From: a bacterium BRH_c32
Lineage (GTDB): Bacteria; Bacteroidota; Ignavibacteria; Ignavibacteriales; Melioribacteraceae
Assembly: GCA_001516025.1 (NCBI GenBank)
Contig: LOEU01000024.1
Coordinates: 186,001 to 250,000 of the forward strand
Direction: 5' to 3'
DNA length: 64,000 nucleotides
The translations under genes and the position numbers were made by a program. Every line of letters starts with the position of its first letter. Positions within the stretch are counted from its first letter, which is position 1. Positions 2,058 through 13,081 of this stretch are shown piece after piece. The notes below the pieces were generated by a model that made no database searches, was not told the DNA's origin, and saw only the letters and a program-made list of their open reading frames with translations.

Positions 2058-3983
2058 ATGCAAAAAATAATTTCAAAAATTGTTTTCGTATTATTTTTAA
2101 GTGCATCTTTTATTTATTCGCAAGATGCTACGTTTAATAAAATAGTAGAATTAGGAACGAAAGATAATCAATCAATGCGACATTTAGATTATCTAACAAA
2201 TGTATTCGGCGGCAGAATTACCGGCTCGAATGCTTATAATAATGCACGTGATTGGGTAGCTAACGAATTAAAGAATTGGGGCATGGAAGTGGAATTTGAT
2301 TCCGCAGGAGTAGTGCCCGTTGGTTTTAATAGAGGTCCATGGTTCGGAAAAATTATATCTCCTGAACCGATGCTTCTTGAATTTGCGACTCCATCATACA
2401 CCGCCGGCACTAAAGGCAATCAAAAGGGACATGTAGTTATTTTGCCTTCGGATGAAAAAGAATACAATGCAATTAAAGGGAAGCTAAATGGTGCTTGGGT
2501 ATTAATCGATGGAATTAATGATGGATTACCACGCGACAGAGATTCGATCAGTCCGATTACAACCAAACTAACCGAAGCCGGTGCACTCGGAACAATTATG
2601 CTTACAAAATCCCCTATTCGCGTACTTGACGCAAAGACAGTAACCGCATGGGACAATCTTCCAAAACTATGCGATATAAGACTACTTGACACAAACTATA
2701 ACAAAATAAAATCACTCGTTGCCGAAGGTAAAGAAGTAATTTTAGAATTTGATATTAGAAATAATTTTTATCCGGGACCGATAACTTTTAGCAGTGTAAT
2801 AGGAACTATTAAAGGTACGACTTATCCGGATGAATATATCGTACTCGGAGCGCATCTCGATTCTTATGATGTAGCAAGCGGTGCAGTGGATAATGGTTCG
2901 GGTGTAGCAAGAATGATGGAGGCAGTTCGTTTATTGGTAAAATCAAAAGCAAAATTAAAACGCTCATTAATAATTCAATTATTTGCCGCCGAAGAGAGAG
3001 GATTGCTTGGTTCGAAAGCATGGGTAAACGGTCATAAAGATTTGCTCCCAAAGATAACTGTAATGCTTAATCATGATAGTGGTACAAATCCCGTTATTGG
3101 ACTTGGCGTTCCCAAACCGATTTATGATGCAGTTCGTCCGGTGGTAGCACCTATTGAGAGTTTGAAACTTGCTTATCCATTTGCTTTAATTGAGACAGGA
3201 AAATACCGCAAAGCAGGAAGAGGCGGAACCGATAGTCATTCATTTAATATGGAAGGAGTGCCGGCACCATGGCTTATAACACGAGGACCGCATCAATACG
3301 GAACAATTTGGCATACGGATTTAGATAGTTATGATCAGATAATAGTAGATGCTCAAGAGCAGTCATCTTTAATGATAGCTCTTCTCACCTATCAAATTGC
3401 TAATATGGATAAGATGCTTCCGAGAGAAGGTTCATTTTTAGAAGATGGAGTTTATGCAGATTTTAATACAAGTAAAGGAAGATTTTCGGTTAAGTTAGAA
3501 TATGAAAAAGCACCTATGACGGTATCGAATTTTGTAGGATTAGTTGAAGGAAAGATAAAGAATGATGCAGTAGCCGAAGGGAAACCATATTTTAATGGAA
3601 CATTATGGCATCGAGTAGTACCGGCTCAATTAATTCAAGCGGGTAAATCAGCCGGTACAGGATTTCAGAGCCCCGGATATATGTTCCCGAATGAAATTGT
3701 AGATGGATTAAATCATAATGAAGCCGGAGTAATTGCGATGGCAAATGCCGGACCAAATACTAATGGAAGTCAATTTTATATTACATTATCCCCAGCCGAA
3801 GCATTAAACGGAAATTATACCGTATTTGGTCATGTAATAGAGGGAATGGATGTAGTAAATAAGATAGCACAAGATGATAAGATTCAGTCAATTTCTATAA
3901 CAAGGATCGGCGAGAAAGCATTAAATTTCAAGCCCGATACCGAGTCGTTTATGAAATTAGTAAAGGATGCCGAGAAGAAGTAA
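2058..3983 (+). CDS. Exported M28 zinc peptidase fused to a cyclophilin-type prolyl isomerase
   Basis: A 641-residue protein with an N-terminal signal peptide (hydrophobic residues 8-20, probable cleavage near SQ). Residues about 30-450 are an M28 metallopeptidase of the PGCP type with a PA-like insert. The expected zinc ligands are His266 (GAHLDS), Asp278 (DNGSG), Glu313 beside catalytic Glu312 (AAEERG), Asp340 (NHDSG) and His419 (WHTDLD). Residues about 465-625 are a cyclophilin, with WHRVVP around His518-Arg519, then MANAGPNTNGSQFYIT and YTVFGHVIEGMDVV. The frame runs through both parts without a break. The protein probably acts in the periplasm or outside the cell, trimming peptides while the second domain isomerises prolyl bonds. 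The fusion is unusual to me. The gene is flanked by spacers and followed by a terminator, so it is probably monocistronic. Confidence 0.9.
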   Translation: MQKIISKIVFVLFLSASFIYSQDATFNKIVELGTKDNQSMRHLDYLTNVFGGRITGSNAYNNARDWVANELKNWGMEVEFDSAGVVPVGFNRGPWFGKIISPEPMLLEFATPSYTAGTKGNQKGHVVILPSDEKEYNAIKGKLNGAWVLIDGINDGLPRDRDSISPITTKLTEAGALGTIMLTKSPIRVLDAKTVTAWDNLPKLCDIRLLDTNYNKIKSLVAEGKEVILEFDIRNNFYPGPITFSSVIGTIKGTTYPDEYIVLGAHLDSYDVASGAVDNGSGVARMMEAVRLLVKSKAKLKRSLIIQLFAAEERGLLGSKAWVNGHKDLLPKITVMLNHDSGTNPVIGLGVPKPIYDAVRPVVAPIESLKLAYPFALIETGKYRKAGRGGTDSHSFNMEGVPAPWLITRGPHQYGTIWHTDLDSYDQIIVDAQEQSSLMIALLTYQIANMDKMLPREGSFLEDGVYADFNTSKGRFSVKLEYEKAPMTVSNFVGLVEGKIKNDAVAEGKPYFNGTLWHRVVPAQLIQAGKSAGTGFQSPGYMFPNEIVDGLNHNEAGVIAMANAGPNTNGSQFYITLSPAEALNGNYTVFGHVIEGMDVVNKIAQDDKIQSISITRIGEKALNFKPDTESFMKLVKDAEKK

Positions 3984-4370
3984 GTAAGATTTCGATAAAA
4001 GTGAAGATATTTTGAGAACTCTTGATGAATCCGCATAGAATCATATCTTTGTCATCGGTTCATAGCGATTCACTTGTGTTGATGATAGACTTAGTTTTTA
4101 TATGAAGTAACACATTTTTATAAGATCTTAATGCCACCCATAATAAGGTGGCATTTTTTTATCAATTCTTCTATACCATTCGAGAATAGATTTTTCTAAA
4201 TTATGAGAAGTTAATAAGACCTTTTATCGCATCTTTCTCAAATCCTATTATTATCCCTTAAAATGCGCTAAAAAAGTTATTTAATTAGTTATAACGATCA
4301 AAATTAATAGGAATGATTATTGCAGCAATCGGGTATTCTAAAAAATAATTGCTTTGAGGTAAAAAAAATA
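3984..4370. other. Non-coding spacer between the M28-cyclophilin gene and the mutase gene
   Basis: About 390 bases with no supported gene. It holds one clear terminator hairpin (4130-4160). The part after it should contain the promoter of the methylmalonyl-CoA cluster. I see a loose inverted repeat around GTTAT...ATAAC near 4279-4299, but no cobalamin riboswitch (no B12-box-like conserved core) despite the B12-dependent enzyme that follows. A TTG at 4320 opens the mutase frame early, but it has no ribosome binding site and adds residues outside the family. Confidence 0.5.
4130..4160 (+). terminator. Intrinsic terminator after the M28-cyclophilin gene
   Basis: A perfect 9-bp stem, AATGCCACC (4130-4138) pairing with GGTGGCATT (4147-4155), with an 8-base loop and followed by a T run to 4160. 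It lies about 150 bases past the peptidase stop, leaving a long 3' untranslated stretch. Confidence 0.85.
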
Positions 4371-6050
4371 ATGAGTAGTATTGAAGAACTAAAATTAAAA
4401 GTTCAAGAGAAATTCAAGAATTGGGAAGAAACCAATTACAAAAAATCCACGAACAAATTCCCCGAAAGATTAAAAGAATTTACAACACAATCATTTACCA
4501 AAGTTGACCCATTATATTATCAGAATGATTTAGCGGAGAATTATAATGAGAAATTAGGATTCCCGGGAGAATTTCCATTTACAAGAGGAATTCAGCCAAC
4601 TATGTATAGAGGCAGATTCTGGACAATGAGGCAGTATGCAGGGTTCGGAACCGCTAAAGAATCGAACGAAAGATACCGTTATTTATTAGGACAGGGACAG
4701 AGTGGCTTATCGGTAGCTTTTGATCTACCTACTCAAATTGGATATGATAGTGATGATCAGATGGCATTGGGCGAAGTTGGAAAAGTGGGTGTGGCAATTG
4801 ATACCTTAGCAGATATGGAAATTTTATTCGATCAAATTCCGCTTGATAAAGTATCCACCTCAATGACAATAAATGCTCCGGCAGCCGTATTACTTGCAAT
4901 GTATATTGCGGTAGCCGAAAAGCAAGGAGTAACAAAAGACAAAATTAGTGGTACTATTCAAAACGACATATTAAAAGAGTATATAGCACGCGGAACTTAT
5001 ATCTACCCTCCGAAACCATCGATGAGATTAATCACAAACATATTTGAATATTGCGCTAAAGAAGTGCCAAAATGGAATACAATTTCCATTTCAGGGTATC
5101 ATATTCGCGAAGCCGGTTCTACAGCCGCTCAAGAAGTTGGCTTTACAATTGCAGATGGTATCGAATATGCAAATGCAGCTATAAAAGCAGGATTAAGCGT
5201 AGATGATTTTGCCGGACAGTTATCTTTCTTCTTTAATGCTCATAACGATATGTTCGAAGAAGTGGCTAAATATCGTGCAGCACGCAGATTATGGGCTAAG
5301 ATAATGAAAGAGAGATTTGGAGCAAAGAAAGAGAAATCATTGATGCTTCGTTTTCATACTCAGACTGCCGGCTCCACTCTTACGGCTCAGCAGGTGGACA
5401 ATAATATTATACGTGTTACAATTCAGACTTTAGCGGCAGTATTGGGCGGGACACAATCGCTCCATACAAATTCACGAGATGAAGCATTGGCACTCCCGAC
5501 AGAAGATTCGGTAAAGATTGCTCTACGCACTCAGCAGATAGTAGCTTATGAAAGCGGTATTACAAATACTATCGATCCACTTGCCGGCTCATATTATGTA
5601 GAAGCATTAACAGACCAAATCGAAAAAGAAGCAGAAGAATATATTAGTAGAATCGATTCTCTAGGTGGAATGATTCCGGCAATTGAGCAAGGATATGTCC
5701 AAACCGAAATTCAGAGATCTGCTTATAAATTCAATCAGGAATTAGAAGCAAACGAGAGAATAGTAGTTAGCTTGAATAAATTTACAGAGAAGGAAGCTCC
5801 AAAAGGTAAACTTCTAAGAATTGATGAAAAAGTTCAGCAAGAACAGATTGCGTTCTTAAATAAAGTGAAAAGCGAAAGAGACAACGAAGCAGTAAAAGAA
5901 AAATTAGCAACATTAAAAACTGCCGCTCAGGGTGATGATAATTTAATGCCCCTAATTCTTGATGCAGTAAGAGCTTATGCAAGTGTTGGAGAAATTTCGA
6001 ATGTATTGCGTGAAGTTTATGGCGAATATAAAGAACATGTAGTTATATAA
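4371..6050 (+). CDS. Methylmalonyl-CoA mutase, large (catalytic barrel) subunit
   Basis: A 559-residue protein carrying only the substrate-binding barrel; the C-terminal B12-binding domain found in full-length mutases is absent and is not encoded nearby. It interconverts succinyl-CoA and (R)-methylmalonyl-CoA by adenosylcobalamin radical chemistry once joined to a small subunit. Tyr89 (RQYAGF) and Arg207 (YIARGTY) are the residues that select methylmalonyl-CoA over isobutyryl-CoA, where Phe and Gln are found; Gln197 (GTIQND) and the SGYH motif are also present. I chose ATG 4371 because GAGGT lies 10 bases before it; an upstream TTG at 4320 would add 17 unsupported residues. It heads a co-directional cluster with the epimerase 15 bases downstream. 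Confidence 0.92.
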
Positions 6051-6065
6051 AATAGGAAACAGAAA

Positions 6066-6473
6066 ATGAAACTAAACAAAATAGAACATATAGGCATTGC
6101 GGTAAAAGATTTAGATGCGGCAATTAGATATTATCAAAGAGTGCTCGGATTAGAATGTTATAATATTGAAGAAGTGAGAGATCAGAAAGTAAGAACCGCA
6201 TTTTTTTTGGTAGGCGAAACAAAGATTGAATTATTGGAATCGCTTGAAGATGATGGACCGATAGGAAAATTCATTGAGAAAAAAGGTGAAGGCGTTCATC
6301 ATATTGCATTCGCAGTTGATAGCGTTGCAGATTCATTAAAAGAGGCAGAAGAAAAAGGGATTCAATTAATTGATAAGTCCCCGCGCAAAGGCGCAGAAAA
6401 TATGAATATAGCATTCTTACATCCAAAAAGTACATTTGGTGTATTAACGGAATTTTGCGAAGAAGGCGAATAA
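6066..6473 (+). CDS. mce: Methylmalonyl-CoA epimerase
   Basis: A 135-residue protein of the vicinal-oxygen-chelate fold, the usual length for this enzyme. It interconverts (R)- and (S)-methylmalonyl-CoA, linking the mutase (R) to the decarboxylase/carboxyltransferase (S). Two beta-alpha-beta repeats are visible, starting with IEHIGIAV and VHHIAFAV. Candidate metal ligands are His8, the Glu55 region (KIELLE), His78/79 and Glu129 (LTEF). It lies between mutase and carboxyltransferase genes on the same strand, which strongly supports this call over another glyoxalase-fold enzyme. Confidence 0.92.
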   Translation: MKLNKIEHIGIAVKDLDAAIRYYQRVLGLECYNIEEVRDQKVRTAFFLVGETKIELLESLEDDGPIGKFIEKKGEGVHHIAFAVDSVADSLKEAEEKGIQLIDKSPRKGAENMNIAFLHPKSTFGVLTEFCEEGE

Positions 6474-6515: not shown

Positions 6516-8075
6516 ATGACAATTGAGGATAAAATAAAAGAGCTTACGGAGATGCGCGCCAAAGCAAGATTAGGCGGAGGCGAAGCTCGTATTAAATCAC
6601 AGCATGAAAAAGGTAAATTCACTGCACGCGAAAGAATTGATATGCTTCTTGATGAAGGAAGTTTTGAAGAATTTGATATGTTCGTTTCGCATAGAACAGT
6701 TGATTTCGGTCTTGATAAGCAATCATATCTATCGGATGGAGTTGTTACCGGTTATGGTACAATCGATGGAAGATTAGTATATGTATTTTCTCAGGATTTC
6801 ACGGTATTCGGAGGTTCACTTTCAGAGATGTATGCGCAAAAAATATGCAAGGTAATGGATATGGCTATGAAAGTAGGCGCACCTGTAATAGGTATTAATG
6901 ATAGCGGTGGCGCACGTATTCAAGAAGGTGTTAAAAGTCTTGGCGGATATGCGGATATTTTTCAGCGTAATATTATGGCTTCCGGAGTGATACCACAGAT
7001 ATCGGCTATTTTTGGACCATGTGCCGGTGGTGCTGTTTATTCACCTGCTCTTACAGATTTTATTATCATGTCCAAAGAAACAAGTTATATGTTTGTTACC
7101 GGTCCTAAGGTAGTAAAAACAGTAACAGGCGAAACTGTTACAGATGAAGAACTCGGCGGAGCGCAGGTTCATGGTTCTAAATCAGGAGTTACACATTTTG
7201 TTGCAGATGACGAACAAGAAGGGATCTTATTAATCAGGAAATTAATTAGTTATATGCCTCAGAATAATTTAGAAGATCCGCCGGTATTACCATGTGATGA
7301 TCCGATTGATCGCCTTGACGATTTATTAAATACTATTATTCCTGAGAATCCGAATAAACCTTATGACGTAAAAGATGTTATTCATTCGATTGTAGATTAT
7401 AATGAGTTCGTAGAAGTCCAGAGACATTACGCACCAAATATCATAACGGGTTTTTCAAGATTCAATGGAATCCCTGTTGGCATAGTAGCAAATCAGCCTG
7501 CATATTTAGCCGGAGTATTAGATATCAATGCATCTCGCAAGGCAGCACGCTTTGTCCGTTTCTGCGATGCATTTAATATTCCCGTTGTTACTTTAGTTGA
7601 CGTTCCCGGTTTCTTACCCGGCACAGCACAGGAATACGGTGGAATTATTATTCACGGCGCTAAATTATTATATGCTTATGGTGAAGCGACCGTTCCTAAA
7701 GTAACGGTGATATTAAGAAAAGCATATGGCGGTGCTTATGACGTAATGAGCTCGAAGCATTTAAGAGGCGATATTAATTATGCTTGGCCTACTGCAGAGA
7801 TTGCCGTAATGGGTCCAAGAGGTGCTATCGAAGTGCTTCACGCAAAAGAACTAAAAGAGATCACCGATCCGCAAAAAAGATTGGAATTTGTAAATGAAAA
7901 AGAAGCTGAATACAAAGCCAAATTTGCTACTCCTTATGTAGCGGCAAAATATGGTTATATAGATGACGTAATAGAACCAAGGAATACGCGATTTAGAATA
8001 ATTAGAGCATTACAGGCATTGGCAACTAAAAAGGATAGTAATCCGCCTAAAAAACATTCCAATCTGCCGCTTTAG
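6516..8075 (+). CDS. mmdA: Methylmalonyl-CoA decarboxylase alpha / propionyl-CoA carboxylase beta carboxyltransferase
   Basis: A 519-residue acyl-CoA carboxyltransferase with N- and C-terminal crotonase-like halves. It moves CO2 between (S)-methylmalonyl-CoA and biotin on the carrier protein. Features include [15 protein letters not shown] near residue 35, the first oxyanion region with [24 protein letters not shown], and in the second half [16 protein letters not shown] and [16 protein letters not shown] strong AAGGAG precedes the ATG. Because the downstream genes encode a biotin carrier and a membrane decarboxylase beta subunit, and there is no biotin carboxylase, the decarboxylating Na+-pump assignment is preferred. 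The protein alone cannot be told apart from PccB. Confidence 0.9.
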
Positions 8076-8090
8076 GAGAAAAAAAAGACA

Positions 8091-9422
8091 ATGACAAAAT
8101 TAAAAATGAAACACGTATTATTAATTCTGATGCTTCCGATATTAATTGTTTTAGTTTCTTCATGTTCGATTGCCGAGAAGAAAACAAAAATAGAATTTGG
8201 ACTTGAAGTGGGTGAAACCTATTCAATCCAGATTTCTAATTCAATAAAGAGCAACGAAGAATTAGATAATACTATAATTAAGAAAGATGAAAAAGTTTTA
8301 GCTGGATTTTCATTTATTCCTACTTCAATATCACCTGAGGGTGAAATAAAATTAAAAGGATCAATTAATTTTATTGAAGTATTGAAAGAAGGGCCGCTCG
8401 GACAGATTGCATATAATTCTGAATTGGACAGCGCTGATATTCCACTGATGGCTAAACCATATTATAATATTCTTAACAAGGAGTTTTCGCTCAAGATATT
8501 AAAAGATGGGACGGTAAATGCGGTTTTTGGAATGGATTCGATAATCGCTCACGCAATGGATTATTTTGAAATAGAAGAACCCCAGCTTATTGATTATCTA
8601 AAAGAATCGTTAGAAAATCAATTTAGTAATGAAGTTCTATTTGAACAATTTGAAAGAATGTTCGCCGTATTTCCGACAAAACCGGTGGGAATTAATGATA
8701 CTTGGACAAAGAAAGTAAAACTAAGTGCAAAAACTCCATTTATAATAGATAATGAATATCGTTTATTAGAACGCAATAATGGTGTAGCAATAATATTAGT
8801 TAATTCAAGAATTGCTTCCGATAAAGATAGAATCAAAGCAAATCCAAGAAGATATATTGATCAAGATTTAGTAGGAACTCAAATCGGGAAAGTACAGATT
8901 GATGAGATAACAGGATGGATCGGCAGAGCTAAATTCGAGTATAAAATACATTCAACAAGAAGTAACGCACCTACAAAATTAAATGCAGGCGAACCGCTCT
9001 TAGTATTAAGTGAAATGGAGATTAAATACGAGCCATTTGCAAGCAGCAAATTCAAAGAAATTGCATTTACTCCCGATGCAGTACTAAAAGGCGATGGAAT
9101 TGGAATGACGCTTACAGGAATGGGAGTAGTATTTACTTCTTTAATTCTTCTTTATATTATTTTTTCTAATATGAAACGTGTAATAAATTTCCGATTTAAT
9201 TTTGGCAAAAAAGAGAAGGAAATAAATGCAGCTAAATTAAAAGAAATAGAAAAAGAAGAAGTGATGACCGGAGAAGTAAATGCGGCTATTGCGGCAGCAC
9301 TATTTTTCTTATCGCAAGAAATGCACGATACGGAAAATGCAGTATTAACAATTAAGAGAGCATCTAAAACATATTCGCCATGGAGTAGTAAGCTTTATGG
9401 TATCAGACAGAATCCAAGATAA
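8091..9422 (+). CDS. Lipoprotein domain fused to OadG/MmdD-like sodium-pump gamma/delta subunit
   Basis: A 443-residue protein with two clear parts. Residues 1-25 are a lipoprotein signal with lipobox V-S-S-C ending at Cys25. Residues 26 to about 325 are a beta-rich extracytoplasmic domain that resembles the DUF6263 type of Bacteroidota lipoproteins (a tentative match). Residues about 335-443 look like the small membrane subunit of Na+-pumping decarboxylases: a membrane helix near 340-362 beginning GMTLTGMGVVF, a charged linker, then AAIAAALFF, HDTENAVLTIKR and SPWSSK. The small subunit normally stands alone at about 80-120 residues and anchors the complex. Its place between the alpha and biotin-carrier genes (15-base gaps each side) supports membership of the pump. 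The fusion's role is unknown. Confidence 0.82.
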   Translation: MTKLKMKHVLLILMLPILIVLVSSCSIAEKKTKIEFGLEVGETYSIQISNSIKSNEELDNTIIKKDEKVLAGFSFIPTSISPEGEIKLKGSINFIEVLKEGPLGQIAYNSELDSADIPLMAKPYYNILNKEFSLKILKDGTVNAVFGMDSIIAHAMDYFEIEEPQLIDYLKESLENQFSNEVLFEQFERMFAVFPTKPVGINDTWTKKVKLSAKTPFIIDNEYRLLERNNGVAIILVNSRIASDKDRIKANPRRYIDQDLVGTQIGKVQIDEITGWIGRAKFEYKIHSTRSNAPTKLNAGEPLLVLSEMEIKYEPFASSKFKEIAFTPDAVLKGDGIGMTLTGMGVVFTSLILLYIIFSNMKRVINFRFNFGKKEKEINAAKLKEIEKEEVMTGEVNAAIAAALFFLSQEMHDTENAVLTIKRASKTYSPWSSKLYGIRQNPR

Positions 9423-9437
9423 TAAACGGATGGGAAA

Positions 9438-9884
9438 ATGAAAAAATTCAAATTTAAGATTCATGGCAATAAGTATGACGTTGAAGTACTAAACGTCGAA
9501 GATAATATAGCAGAAATAGATGTAAATGGTACTACATACACGGTTGAAGTAGATAAAGACTTAAAGCCGGTAAAAACGCCAAAGATGGTTCGTTCGATGG
9601 CAGTACCATCAACTGAAACAGTTAAAACACAATTAAAAACAAGCAGTCCCGCAGCTCCTAAAGGCGTTGGTACTATTAAGTCTCCCCTTCCGGGAGTAAT
9701 TCTTAATATATTGGCAAAAGAAGGACAACCTGTAAAGATTGGAGATCGGATATTGGTTCTTGAAGCAATGAAAATGGAAAACAATATTGAGGCCGATAAA
9801 GAAGGAATCATTAAATCGATAAAAGTAAAAGCAGGAGATTCCGTTTTAGAGGGTGATTTATTAGTTGAAATTGGGAGAGATTAA
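9438..9884 (+). CDS. Biotin carboxyl carrier subunit of the decarboxylase
   Basis: A 148-residue protein with a variable N-terminal part, a flexible Pro/Ala/Ser linker near residues 58-76 and a C-terminal biotinyl domain (about 78-147). The biotin attachment site EAMKM is at 109-113, so Lys112 should be biotinylated. It carries CO2 from the carboxyltransferase to the membrane beta subunit. Its stop overlaps the next start as TAATG, which indicates translational coupling with the beta subunit. No biotin protein ligase gene is in the window. Confidence 0.92.
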   Translation: MKKFKFKIHGNKYDVEVLNVEDNIAEIDVNGTTYTVEVDKDLKPVKTPKMVRSMAVPSTETVKTQLKTSSPAAPKGVGTIKSPLPGVILNILAKEGQPVKIGDRILVLEAMKMENNIEADKEGIIKSIKVKAGDSVLEGDLLVEIGRD

Positions 9885-11029
9885 TGGAAGGTCTTTATAA
9901 ATTTTTTGAATATTCGGGTTTTGCAAATATAACTCCCGGACACGTAGTGATGATTTCGGTAGGATTATTATTTATCTATTTGGCAATCGCAAAAGAATAT
10001 GAACCATTATTATTAGTCCCAATTGGTTTCGGCATTATTGTCGGCAATATTCCATTCGTAGAAAATATTGGACTCCAATTAGGAATATATGAAGACGGTT
10101 CCGTAATGAACTATCTATATTTCGGTGTATTGAAAGGAGTATATCCACCTCTTATTTTCTTGGGTATAGGAGCAATGACCGATTTTTCAACATTATTATC
10201 AAATCCGAAATTGATATTACTCGGAGCTGCTGCACAGGTGGGAATATTTTTAACTTTCATGGGTGCGCTTGCACTCGGATTCACTCCTGAACAGGCTGCA
10301 TCAATCGGTATAATCGGTGGAGCAGATGGTCCGACAGCTATATTCCTTTCATCAAAATTAGCCCCTGAATTAGTAGGAGCAATAGCGATATCGGCATATT
10401 CTTATATGGCATTAGTCCCTGTATTGCAGCCGCCAATAATGAGACTCCTTACAACTAAAGAAGAACGAGTAATCAGAATGAAACCGCCTCGTGCAGTTTC
10501 AAAAACCGAGAAGATAATGTTCCCGATTATTGGATTACTATTGACTACATTTATCACTCCGAGCGCATTGCCGCTTCTTGGAATGTTATTCTTCGGTAAT
10601 GTTTTAAAGGAAAGTGGAGTTACCAAGCGATTAGCAGATACGGCAAAAGGATCGTTAATTGATATAGTTACAATTCTAATCGGTTTAACTGTTGGTGCTT
10701 CCACTCAGGCATCAACATTCCTGAGACCACAATCAATATTAATCTTCGGACTTGGAGCAGTTTCATTTATGGTTGCTACTGCCGGAGGGGTTCTATTCGC
10801 TAAATTTATGAATCTATTCTTAAAAGGTGAAAACAGAATTAATCCATTGATTGGAAATGCCGGTGTATCAGCAGTACCGGATAGTGCTCGTGTTTCTCAG
10901 GTTATCGGACAGGAATATGATAAGACAAATCACTTATTAATGCATGCAATGGCACCAAACGTAGCCGGAGTAATTGGCTCGGCTGTGGCTGCAGGTATAT
11001 TAATGAGTTTCTTGCTTCACGTTTTATAG
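9884..11029 (+). CDS. mmdB: Na+-translocating (methylmalonyl-CoA) decarboxylase beta subunit
   Basis: A 381-residue polytopic membrane protein of the OadB/MmdB/GcdB family. It decarboxylates carboxybiotin and uses the energy to export Na+. Key motifs are GGADGPTAIF, holding the essential membrane Asp, and GNAGVSAVPDSARVSQ near the C-terminus. The second half repeats the first in overall pattern. The start codon overlaps the biotin carrier stop by one base. The substrate (methylmalonyl-CoA rather than oxaloacetate or glutaconyl-CoA) is inferred from the linked mutase and epimerase, not from this subunit. It is the last gene of the cluster. Confidence 0.93.
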   Translation: MEGLYKFFEYSGFANITPGHVVMISVGLLFIYLAIAKEYEPLLLVPIGFGIIVGNIPFVENIGLQLGIYEDGSVMNYLYFGVLKGVYPPLIFLGIGAMTDFSTLLSNPKLILLGAAAQVGIFLTFMGALALGFTPEQAASIGIIGGADGPTAIFLSSKLAPELVGAIAISAYSYMALVPVLQPPIMRLLTTKEERVIRMKPPRAVSKTEKIMFPIIGLLLTTFITPSALPLLGMLFFGNVLKESGVTKRLADTAKGSLIDIVTILIGLTVGASTQASTFLRPQSILIFGLGAVSFMVATAGGVLFAKFMNLFLKGENRINPLIGNAGVSAVPDSARVSQVIGQEYDKTNHLLMHAMAPNVAGVIGSAVAAGILMSFLLHVL

Positions 11030-11098: not shown

Positions 11099-13081
11099 AT
11101 GAGGGGAATTTTTTTATCTATAATCGCATTCTTGGTATTGAATGTTACAATACATCCGCAATCCGGCGCCGAACTATGTTCATCTGCAAAAATTAAATCT
11201 TACGAAAAACTATTTAAAAGCGATCAGATAAATTATCCGGGTGATAGTAATATAGATATTACTTACTATAAGTTAGATCTTCAATTTTATTATTCATCTA
11301 AATTTTTATCCGGGACTGCAAATATTAATGGAGTATCAAAAAAAGAAAATCTTGGACAGATATTTTTAGATCTAAATAGATCAATGACTGTCCAAAATGT
11401 AATTTTCGAGAATCAGATTCTTACAACCAACCATACAATTCAAAATAGATTATATATTACATTACCTGCCGGACGAAATTTAAGATTTAATGAACCATTT
11501 TCGCTTGAAATTAAATATAACGGATATCCGGAAAGCAGCGGCGGATTTGGCACTATTGCATTTGGAGACCGAGGACTAAAATCAATATACACATTAAGCG
11601 AGCCTTATGGTTCTAAGGATTGGTTCCCGTGTAAAGATACTCCTGCAGATAAAGCTGATTCATCGGATGTATGGATAACCTCGGAGCCATTTTTTGTATC
11701 GGTTTCAAACGGTAAATTAATGGAAACAGTTACTAATCAGGATGGAACGAAAACATATAAATGGAAAAATAGTTATCCGATTGCTCCTTATTTAATATCT
11801 GTTGCGATGTCGAATTTTGTCATTTATAATACATCATTTAATTATGCCGAAGGCAAATCGATGCCTGTGGATCATTATATTTATCCGGTCTCTTGGTCCG
11901 AGAATACTAAATTTGCTTTAGATAAAACGATAGATATGTTAAGAATCTTCACAGAAAAATATGGAGAATATCCTTTTATAAAAGAGAAGTATGGACATGC
12001 GCAATTTGGATTCGGCGGTGGAATGGAGCATCAAACTATCTCTTCAATGGGTTCTTTTGAAGAGACCATAGTGGCTCATGAGCTTGCTCATCAATGGTTT
12101 GGTGATAAAGTAACATGTAAGAACTGGGAAAATATTTGGCTTAATGAAGGGTTCGCAACATATTCTGAATCGATCTATTTGGAAGCGAAATATGGTAAAG
12201 CAGCTTTTATGAATGACGTTCAGGCGAATATGAATGGGGCTATGAATGCACAAGGTCCATTATACCTTAAAGATATTAGCAGTGTAAATTCCATTTTTAA
12301 TTATAATAGATCGTATGCTAAGGGAGCAATAGTACTTCACATGCTTCGTGGTGTTATGGGAGATGATAATTTTTTCAAAGCGATGAGAACATATCACGAT
12401 AAACCGGCATTTAGATATGGAGTTGTAACGACTGAAGATTTTCAGGGTGTTTGCGAAGAAATAAGCGGAATCTCTCTTGATTATTTTTTTAGAGAATGGA
12501 TCTATGGCGAAAACTATCCTCGCTATAATATTGGATGGAATCAATCATTAGTTCCGGGAACGAATAAATATAAATTGCTCTTTAGATTAAAACAAACATC
12601 GAATAATAATCCACAGTTTTTCACAATGCCATTTGAACTTAAGATCGGTTTTGGCAGCGGTAGAGATACAACCGTAGCAGCATTCAATTCATCAAAAGAA
12701 GAGGTATTTGAATTTTTTGTAAGTGAAAAACCGGTTTCAATTTCGTTTGATCCAAATTCAAAAATTCTCAAAGAAGTGCTTTCTATTTCAGCTTTAAGAG
12801 ATGAATCCTTGTTACCTGTAGAATATTCCTTGAGTCAAAATTACCCTAATCCATTTAATCCTACAACGATAATTGAATATTCACTTCCTCTTTCGGGAAA
12901 TGTAAAAATCACTTTATTTGATGCTATCGGTAAAGAAGTCAAAGAATTAGTAAACAAATATGAAGATCGAGGATATCACAAAATAGAATTTAATGCTGAA
13001 AATCTTGCAAGCGGTATTTATATTTACAAATTAGAAATCGATAATTTCATCGATTCAAAAAAGATGATATTAGTTAAATAA
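11099..13081 (+). CDS. Secreted M1 family aminopeptidase with type IX sorting domain
   Basis: A 660-residue protein. Residues 1-22 form a signal peptide. The M1 catalytic core has GGGMEH (exopeptidase motif), HELAH with zinc ligands His327 and His331 and catalytic Glu328, and third ligand Glu350 in LNEGFATY. Residues about 573-660 are a type A T9SS C-terminal sorting domain: SQNYPNPFNP, a central GKEV turn, and a final LASGIYIYKLE strand pattern ending in a Lys. The protein is therefore exported by Sec, then passed through the outer membrane by the type IX system, and may be anchored on the surface. It should remove N-terminal residues from peptides. This is the only clear T9SS cargo seen in the window. 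Confidence 0.93.
   Translation: MRGIFLSIIAFLVLNVTIHPQSGAELCSSAKIKSYEKLFKSDQINYPGDSNIDITYYKLDLQFYYSSKFLSGTANINGVSKKENLGQIFLDLNRSMTVQNVIFENQILTTNHTIQNRLYITLPAGRNLRFNEPFSLEIKYNGYPESSGGFGTIAFGDRGLKSIYTLSEPYGSKDWFPCKDTPADKADSSDVWITSEPFFVSVSNGKLMETVTNQDGTKTYKWKNSYPIAPYLISVAMSNFVIYNTSFNYAEGKSMPVDHYIYPVSWSENTKFALDKTIDMLRIFTEKYGEYPFIKEKYGHAQFGFGGGMEHQTISSMGSFEETIVAHELAHQWFGDKVTCKNWENIWLNEGFATYSESIYLEAKYGKAAFMNDVQANMNGAMNAQGPLYLKDISSVNSIFNYNRSYAKGAIVLHMLRGVMGDDNFFKAMRTYHDKPAFRYGVVTTEDFQGVCEEISGISLDYFFREWIYGENYPRYNIGWNQSLVPGTNKYKLLFRLKQTSNNNPQFFTMPFELKIGFGSGRDTTVAAFNSSKEEVFEFFVSEKPVSISFDPNSKILKEVLSISALRDESLLPVEYSLSQNYPNPFNPTTIIEYSLPLSGNVKITLFDAIGKEVKELVNKYEDRGYHKIEFNAENLASGIYIYKLEIDNFIDSKKMILVK

Follow-up and report, generated by a model that had tools for sequence, protein, structure and literature searches.

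The window, a stretch of 64,000 nucleotides from the genome of the Melioribacteraceae bacterium BRH_c32, carried an operon with the gene order mcmA, epimerase, mmdA, fusion gene, biotin carrier and OAD_beta, all on the forward strand. The first genes encoded a methylmalonyl-CoA mutase subunit (4371-6050, the start chosen inside the ORF 4320-6050; PF01642 with E = 1.6e-233, and TIGR00641) and a methylmalonyl-CoA epimerase (6066-6473; TIGR03081 above cut-off). The carboxyltransferase alpha subunit was of the MmdA type (6516-8075; PF01039 with E = 7.5e-204), with 831.7 bits for TIGR01117, below its cut-off of 998.8. The fusion gene was followed by a biotin carboxyl carrier subunit with the biotin motif EAMKMEN (9438-9884; PF00364 with E = 3.8e-18) and by the beta subunit of a Na+-translocating decarboxylase (9884-11029; PF03977 with E = 7e-155, TIGR01109 above cut-off). 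Aligned with the beta subunit of the Salmonella oxaloacetate decarboxylase (OAD; 6iva), the latter kept the pump motifs GGADGPTA and NPLIGxAGVSAVP. The operon is thus predicted to encode a Na+ pump of the methylmalonyl-CoA decarboxylase type. A preceding sequence-only reading had set the fusion gene between the alpha and biotin carrier genes, and the profile searches gave the same order.

Directly 3' of the pump operon there was an M1 aminopeptidase whose C-terminus carried a type IX secretion sorting domain (11099-13081, +), and in another genome of the order, G031, an ORF of similar size was found at this place beside the pump operon. Elsewhere in the window, a single frame of 641 aa encoded two domains, an M28 peptidase and, after it, a cyclophilin-type prolyl isomerase (2058-3983, +).

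The fusion gene was a single intact ORF of 443 aa, without internal stop (8091-9422, +), preceded by a GGAG Shine-Dalgarno-like sequence overlapping the mmdA stop. It joined a lipoprotein domain to OadG/MmdD (the gamma subunit of oxaloacetate decarboxylase and the delta subunit of methylmalonyl-CoA decarboxylase). The N-terminus, MTKLKMKHVLLILMLPILIVLVSSC, had by eye an n-region, an h-region and a lipobox with its Cys (signal peptide 8091-8165; V-S-S-C25, Cys codon 8163-8165), and from this motif alone Cys25 is predicted to be lipidated. The extracytoplasmic part spanned approximately residues 26-334. Within it, residues 100-277 (8388-8921) were the Pfam core of DUF6263 (PF19777, E = 2.1e-34; 119.3 bits, cut-off 26.7), and G140 and W205, invariant across the compared DUF6263 set, were kept. 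The OAD_gamma core followed at residues 335-404 (9093-9302; PF04277, E = 8.9e-14; 52.4 bits, cut-off 27). By hydropathy it included a transmembrane helix at ~337-360. A conserved OadG tail, common to stand-alone OadGs and ending YSPWSSKLYGIRQNPR, closed the protein (9303-9419). By analogy with the Salmonella enzyme (PMC7274780), this tail would be cytoplasmic and contact the alpha subunit or the biotin carrier.

Only two stretches of the protein were strongly hydrophobic, the signal peptide (~2-30) and the OadG helix. Basic residues lay behind this single helix, consistent with an N-out/C-in orientation. When each half was searched alone it still matched its own Pfam domain, which bears out the claim of the sequence-only reading that a lipoprotein with a lipobox at Cys25 and an OadG/MmdD-like module at residues 335-443 share one frame. 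The match to TIGR01195 (oadG_fam), a narrower model than PF04277 and one not demanded by the Pfam definition, stayed below the cut-off of 36.05, with 30.2 bits for the whole protein and 34.7 for the C-terminal part. Membership in OadG rests therefore on Pfam, the operon slot and the homologues. No second OadG-type protein was detected in the BRH_c32 genome or in the other genome carrying the fusion, so that the fused copy must supply the OadG function in both.

To assess how widespread the fusion is, as the sequence-only reading had proposed, we looked for the fused gene in 79 genomes from the family, 164 from the order and 391 taken from the class. It was found in two of the 164 genomes of the order, BRH_c32 and HGW-Ignavibacteriae-2 (G118; PGYT01000006.1). 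More than 80 genomes of the order had only the stand-alone OadG, typically of 119-200 aa, in agreement with the earlier statement that OadG/MmdD is normally short and separate. Among these, G031, a genus-mate of HGW-Ignavibacteriae-2, had a stand-alone OadG in the same slot. Some of the order's stand-alone OadGs, such as those of G044, G051 and G332, had a short tail as well as a signal peptide. A scan of named genomes for the two fused domains, using two peptide patterns that distant fusions could escape, found HGW-Ignavibacteriae-2 only, and the only matches on plasmids were to OadG parts of genes of the Bacteroidota type. Two sets of candidates were rejected. In G046, G054 and G710, similarity that seemed to continue through stops upstream of a stand-alone OadG had suggested a split gene, but it was due to chance: the upstream stretch was the end of mmdA plus short N-terminal tails, not DUF6263. 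The long OadG frames in G673, G590 and G439 were merely open from stop to stop.

The HGW-Ignavibacteriae-2 fusion was 48% identical to that of the window over its whole length and lay in the same slot, with mmdA on one side and the biotin carrier gene on the other. Its frame and its two domains were conserved, and the lipobox was I-T-S-C. The junction, FKxIAFxPxAVxKGDGIGMT, was strongly conserved, and the tail was conserved too. Across DUF6263, junction and OadG alike, it was the third codon positions that changed most, as expected for a translated, constrained sequence. Between the two genomes the identity was 44% for DUF6263, 62% for OadG, 76% for the biotin carrier, 87% for alpha and 90% for beta, the fused DUF6263 domain being the least conserved part of the operon.

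In a tree of the operon proteins, BRH_c32 and HGW-Ignavibacteriae-2 were joined with a support of 100/99 (99/94 without the oadG columns). In the rpoB tree, HGW-Ignavibacteriae-2 grouped with its genus-mates G031 and G716 (100/99), and BRH_c32 fell in another group (97/96). The operon data rejected a clade of HGW-Ignavibacteriae-2, G031 and G716 (AU test, p = 1.4e-7), and the rpoB data rejected a clade of the two fusion genomes (p = 2e-5). This conflict shows an exchange of the operon between lineages, in which the fusion was carried along. The horizontal movement, the rarity of the fusion and the assignment of the extra domain to a known family, DUF6263, had all been missed by the sequence-only reading. 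The fused DUF6263 grouped, with a support of 100/100, with stand-alone DUF6263 proteins found outside the order, in a tree with long branches. An origin from the host's own DUF6263 paralogue was unsupported, this paralogue lying on another DUF6263 branch of the same long-branched tree.

The stand-alone DUF6263 lipoprotein of BRH_c32 was encoded close to a succinyl-CoA-ligase alpha gene, and HGW-Ignavibacteriae-2 had a similar arrangement (L085:5934-8299 and L086). In the latter genome, a tRNA-Asn (L077:10465-10537) lay ~270 bases away from where the transferred operon begins and is a possible insertion point.

In the Salmonella OAD, gamma subunits surround the beta trimer, and the C-terminal tail of gamma is cytoplasmic and serves to recruit alpha there (PMC7274780). 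With a cytoplasmic tail and one helix, the N-terminus of OadG is periplasmic anyway. By this analogy the fusion would have the expected N-out/C-in form of OadG, its extra domain extending the free periplasmic end. The unusual topology that had been read from the sequence is thus not borne out, the more so as some Bacteroidota OadGs carry signal peptides or lamin-tail domains (LTD) at their N-terminus. Since helix and tail are kept, the same role as that of the Salmonella gamma subunit is expected, with DUF6263 in the periplasm.

We slightly favor the reading that the protein is an ordinary OadG/MmdD scaffold subunit in a methylmalonyl-CoA-type decarboxylase that pumps Na+, and that it bears a lipid-anchored periplasmic cap that stabilizes the complex or docks it to an envelope partner. 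The protein would be exported by its lipoprotein signal, lipidated at Cys25 and retained in the outer leaflet of the inner membrane. Folded in the periplasm, DUF6263 (~300 residues) would be held by the lipid at one end and by the helix at the other, which would fix the protein in the inner membrane. The single helix probably binds the beta subunit, and the cytoplasmic tail would hold the carboxyltransferase and the biotin carrier. If the stoichiometry is beta3-gamma3 as in the Salmonella OAD, three lipid-anchored DUF6263 domains would ring the periplasmic face of the beta trimer. Stabilizing or docking would be the simplest role for such a cap. This role may be minor, since DUF6263 has the lowest identity in the operon and nearly all relatives do without it.

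Alternatively, DUF6263 could be a nearly neutral passenger: a lipoprotein gene that happened to become joined to oadG, was tolerated since OadG has a free N-terminus, and subsequently travelled with the operon. The presence of the fusion in only two of 164 genomes, the low identity of the domain and the sufficiency of a stand-alone OadG in relatives would fit this history. However, two lineages whose fusions now share 48% identity still have the frame, lipobox, domain and junction in common, the residues invariant in the compared family members are also kept, and we consider a mere passenger rather unlikely.

A ligand-binding sensor or carrier, for example for a lipid or another hydrophobic molecule, that controls the pump or couples it to the state of the envelope appears doubtful as well. 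A sensing of substrate or Na+, suggested in the sequence-only reading, would be possible but is unsupported. Two AlphaFold runs from two sequences gave models of low confidence (mean pLDDT 49.6 and 54.6). The predicted layout was beta-rich with three central helices. For the full-length model, Foldseek found weak matches to lipid carriers, ApoB/MTP and the mycobacterial LmcA, and it is this layout and these matches that may hint at a carrier. But the models are too weak for a fold to be assigned and the TM-scores (<=0.4) are too poor to be trusted, LmcA and MTP were absent among the matches listed for the second model, and no sensor family was matched. Sequence searches of the PDB, one using the OadG part and one using the DUF6263 alignment, gave nothing significant.

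It is quite improbable that the gene yields two separate proteins, a DUF6263 lipoprotein and a normal OadG, by an internal start or by proteolysis. Between residue 240 and the membrane helix, the in-frame starts of the two fusions do not correspond (ATG309 in the window, GTG329 in HGW-Ignavibacteriae-2). ATG309, which would allow such a start in the window, is absent from the sister fusion and lacks a clear ribosome site. A purine-rich stretch does precede ATG339 (337 in HGW-Ignavibacteriae-2) in both genomes, but this codon lies inside the conserved GIGMT at the start of the membrane helix, and the compared stand-alone OadGs keep this segment together with residues before it. A restart near residue 335, considered already in the sequence-only reading, is therefore unlikely to leave a complete OadG. 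An assembly or sequencing error that joined two neighboring genes has a negligible chance: the draft genome that contains the window has 43 contigs, but the same fusion in the separately assembled HGW-Ignavibacteriae-2 shows that it is not such an error, and no DUF6263 gene lay beside oadG in any relative inspected.

The favored reading, a scaffold subunit with a periplasmic cap, has a counterpart elsewhere in the phylum. PF04277 occurred in long frames in few genomes, and the true fusions among these were LTD (PF00932) plus OAD_gamma, ~295-350 aa long and with a lipobox in two of them. Such fusions were seen in Na+ decarboxylase operons of Bacteroidales (L122:3407-4327, L123:3434-4321, L090, L091, L093, L095, L102). 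WP_007758640.1 (Bacteroides finegoldii) and WP_009276531.1 (Parabacteroides distasonis), LTD-OadGs with the same operon order, are annotated as "OadG family transporter subunit". In the library of papers searched, none dealt with an extended OadG or one bearing a lamin tail domain, and none mentioned DUF6263. For DUF6263, a family of unknown function, the fusion supplies an initial physical context, namely linkage to a Na+ pump subunit, at least in these two lineages. Together with the LTD fusions, it makes OadG, usually seen as a bare anchor, a repeated site for periplasmic modules in Bacteroidota. More tentatively, Na+ decarboxylase pumps of this phylum may have added unrelated extracytoplasmic domains to the free end of OadG more than once because they serve an unrecognized purpose in the periplasm, for example anchoring to the cell wall or outer membrane, or control by an envelope ligand; we consider this possible but rather unlikely.

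Compared with known systems, the fusion resembles OadG/MmdD in its slot beside alpha, biotin carrier and beta, its single helix and its conserved YSPWSSKxYGxR tail, and differs from the OadG/MmdD of its relatives (~119-200 aa) by the lipoprotein domain of 300 residues. It shares with the stand-alone DUF6263 lipoproteins of Ignavibacteria and other Bacteroidota the signal peptide, mostly with a lipobox, and the DUF6263 domain, whereas these lack OadG and are located elsewhere in the genome. Like the LTD-OadG of Bacteroidales, it has a signal peptide (with a lipobox in some of the latter) and an extracytoplasmic domain N-terminal to the OadG module, and the LTD-OadG operon order, mce-mmdA-OadG-biotin carrier-beta, matches its own. 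The added domain is in one case a lamin tail of ~120-150 residues, for which the window protein had no match up to E = 1, and in the other DUF6263. Periplasmic additions to the N-terminus of OadG thus recur in Bacteroidota, and the DUF6263 version is a new and rare one.
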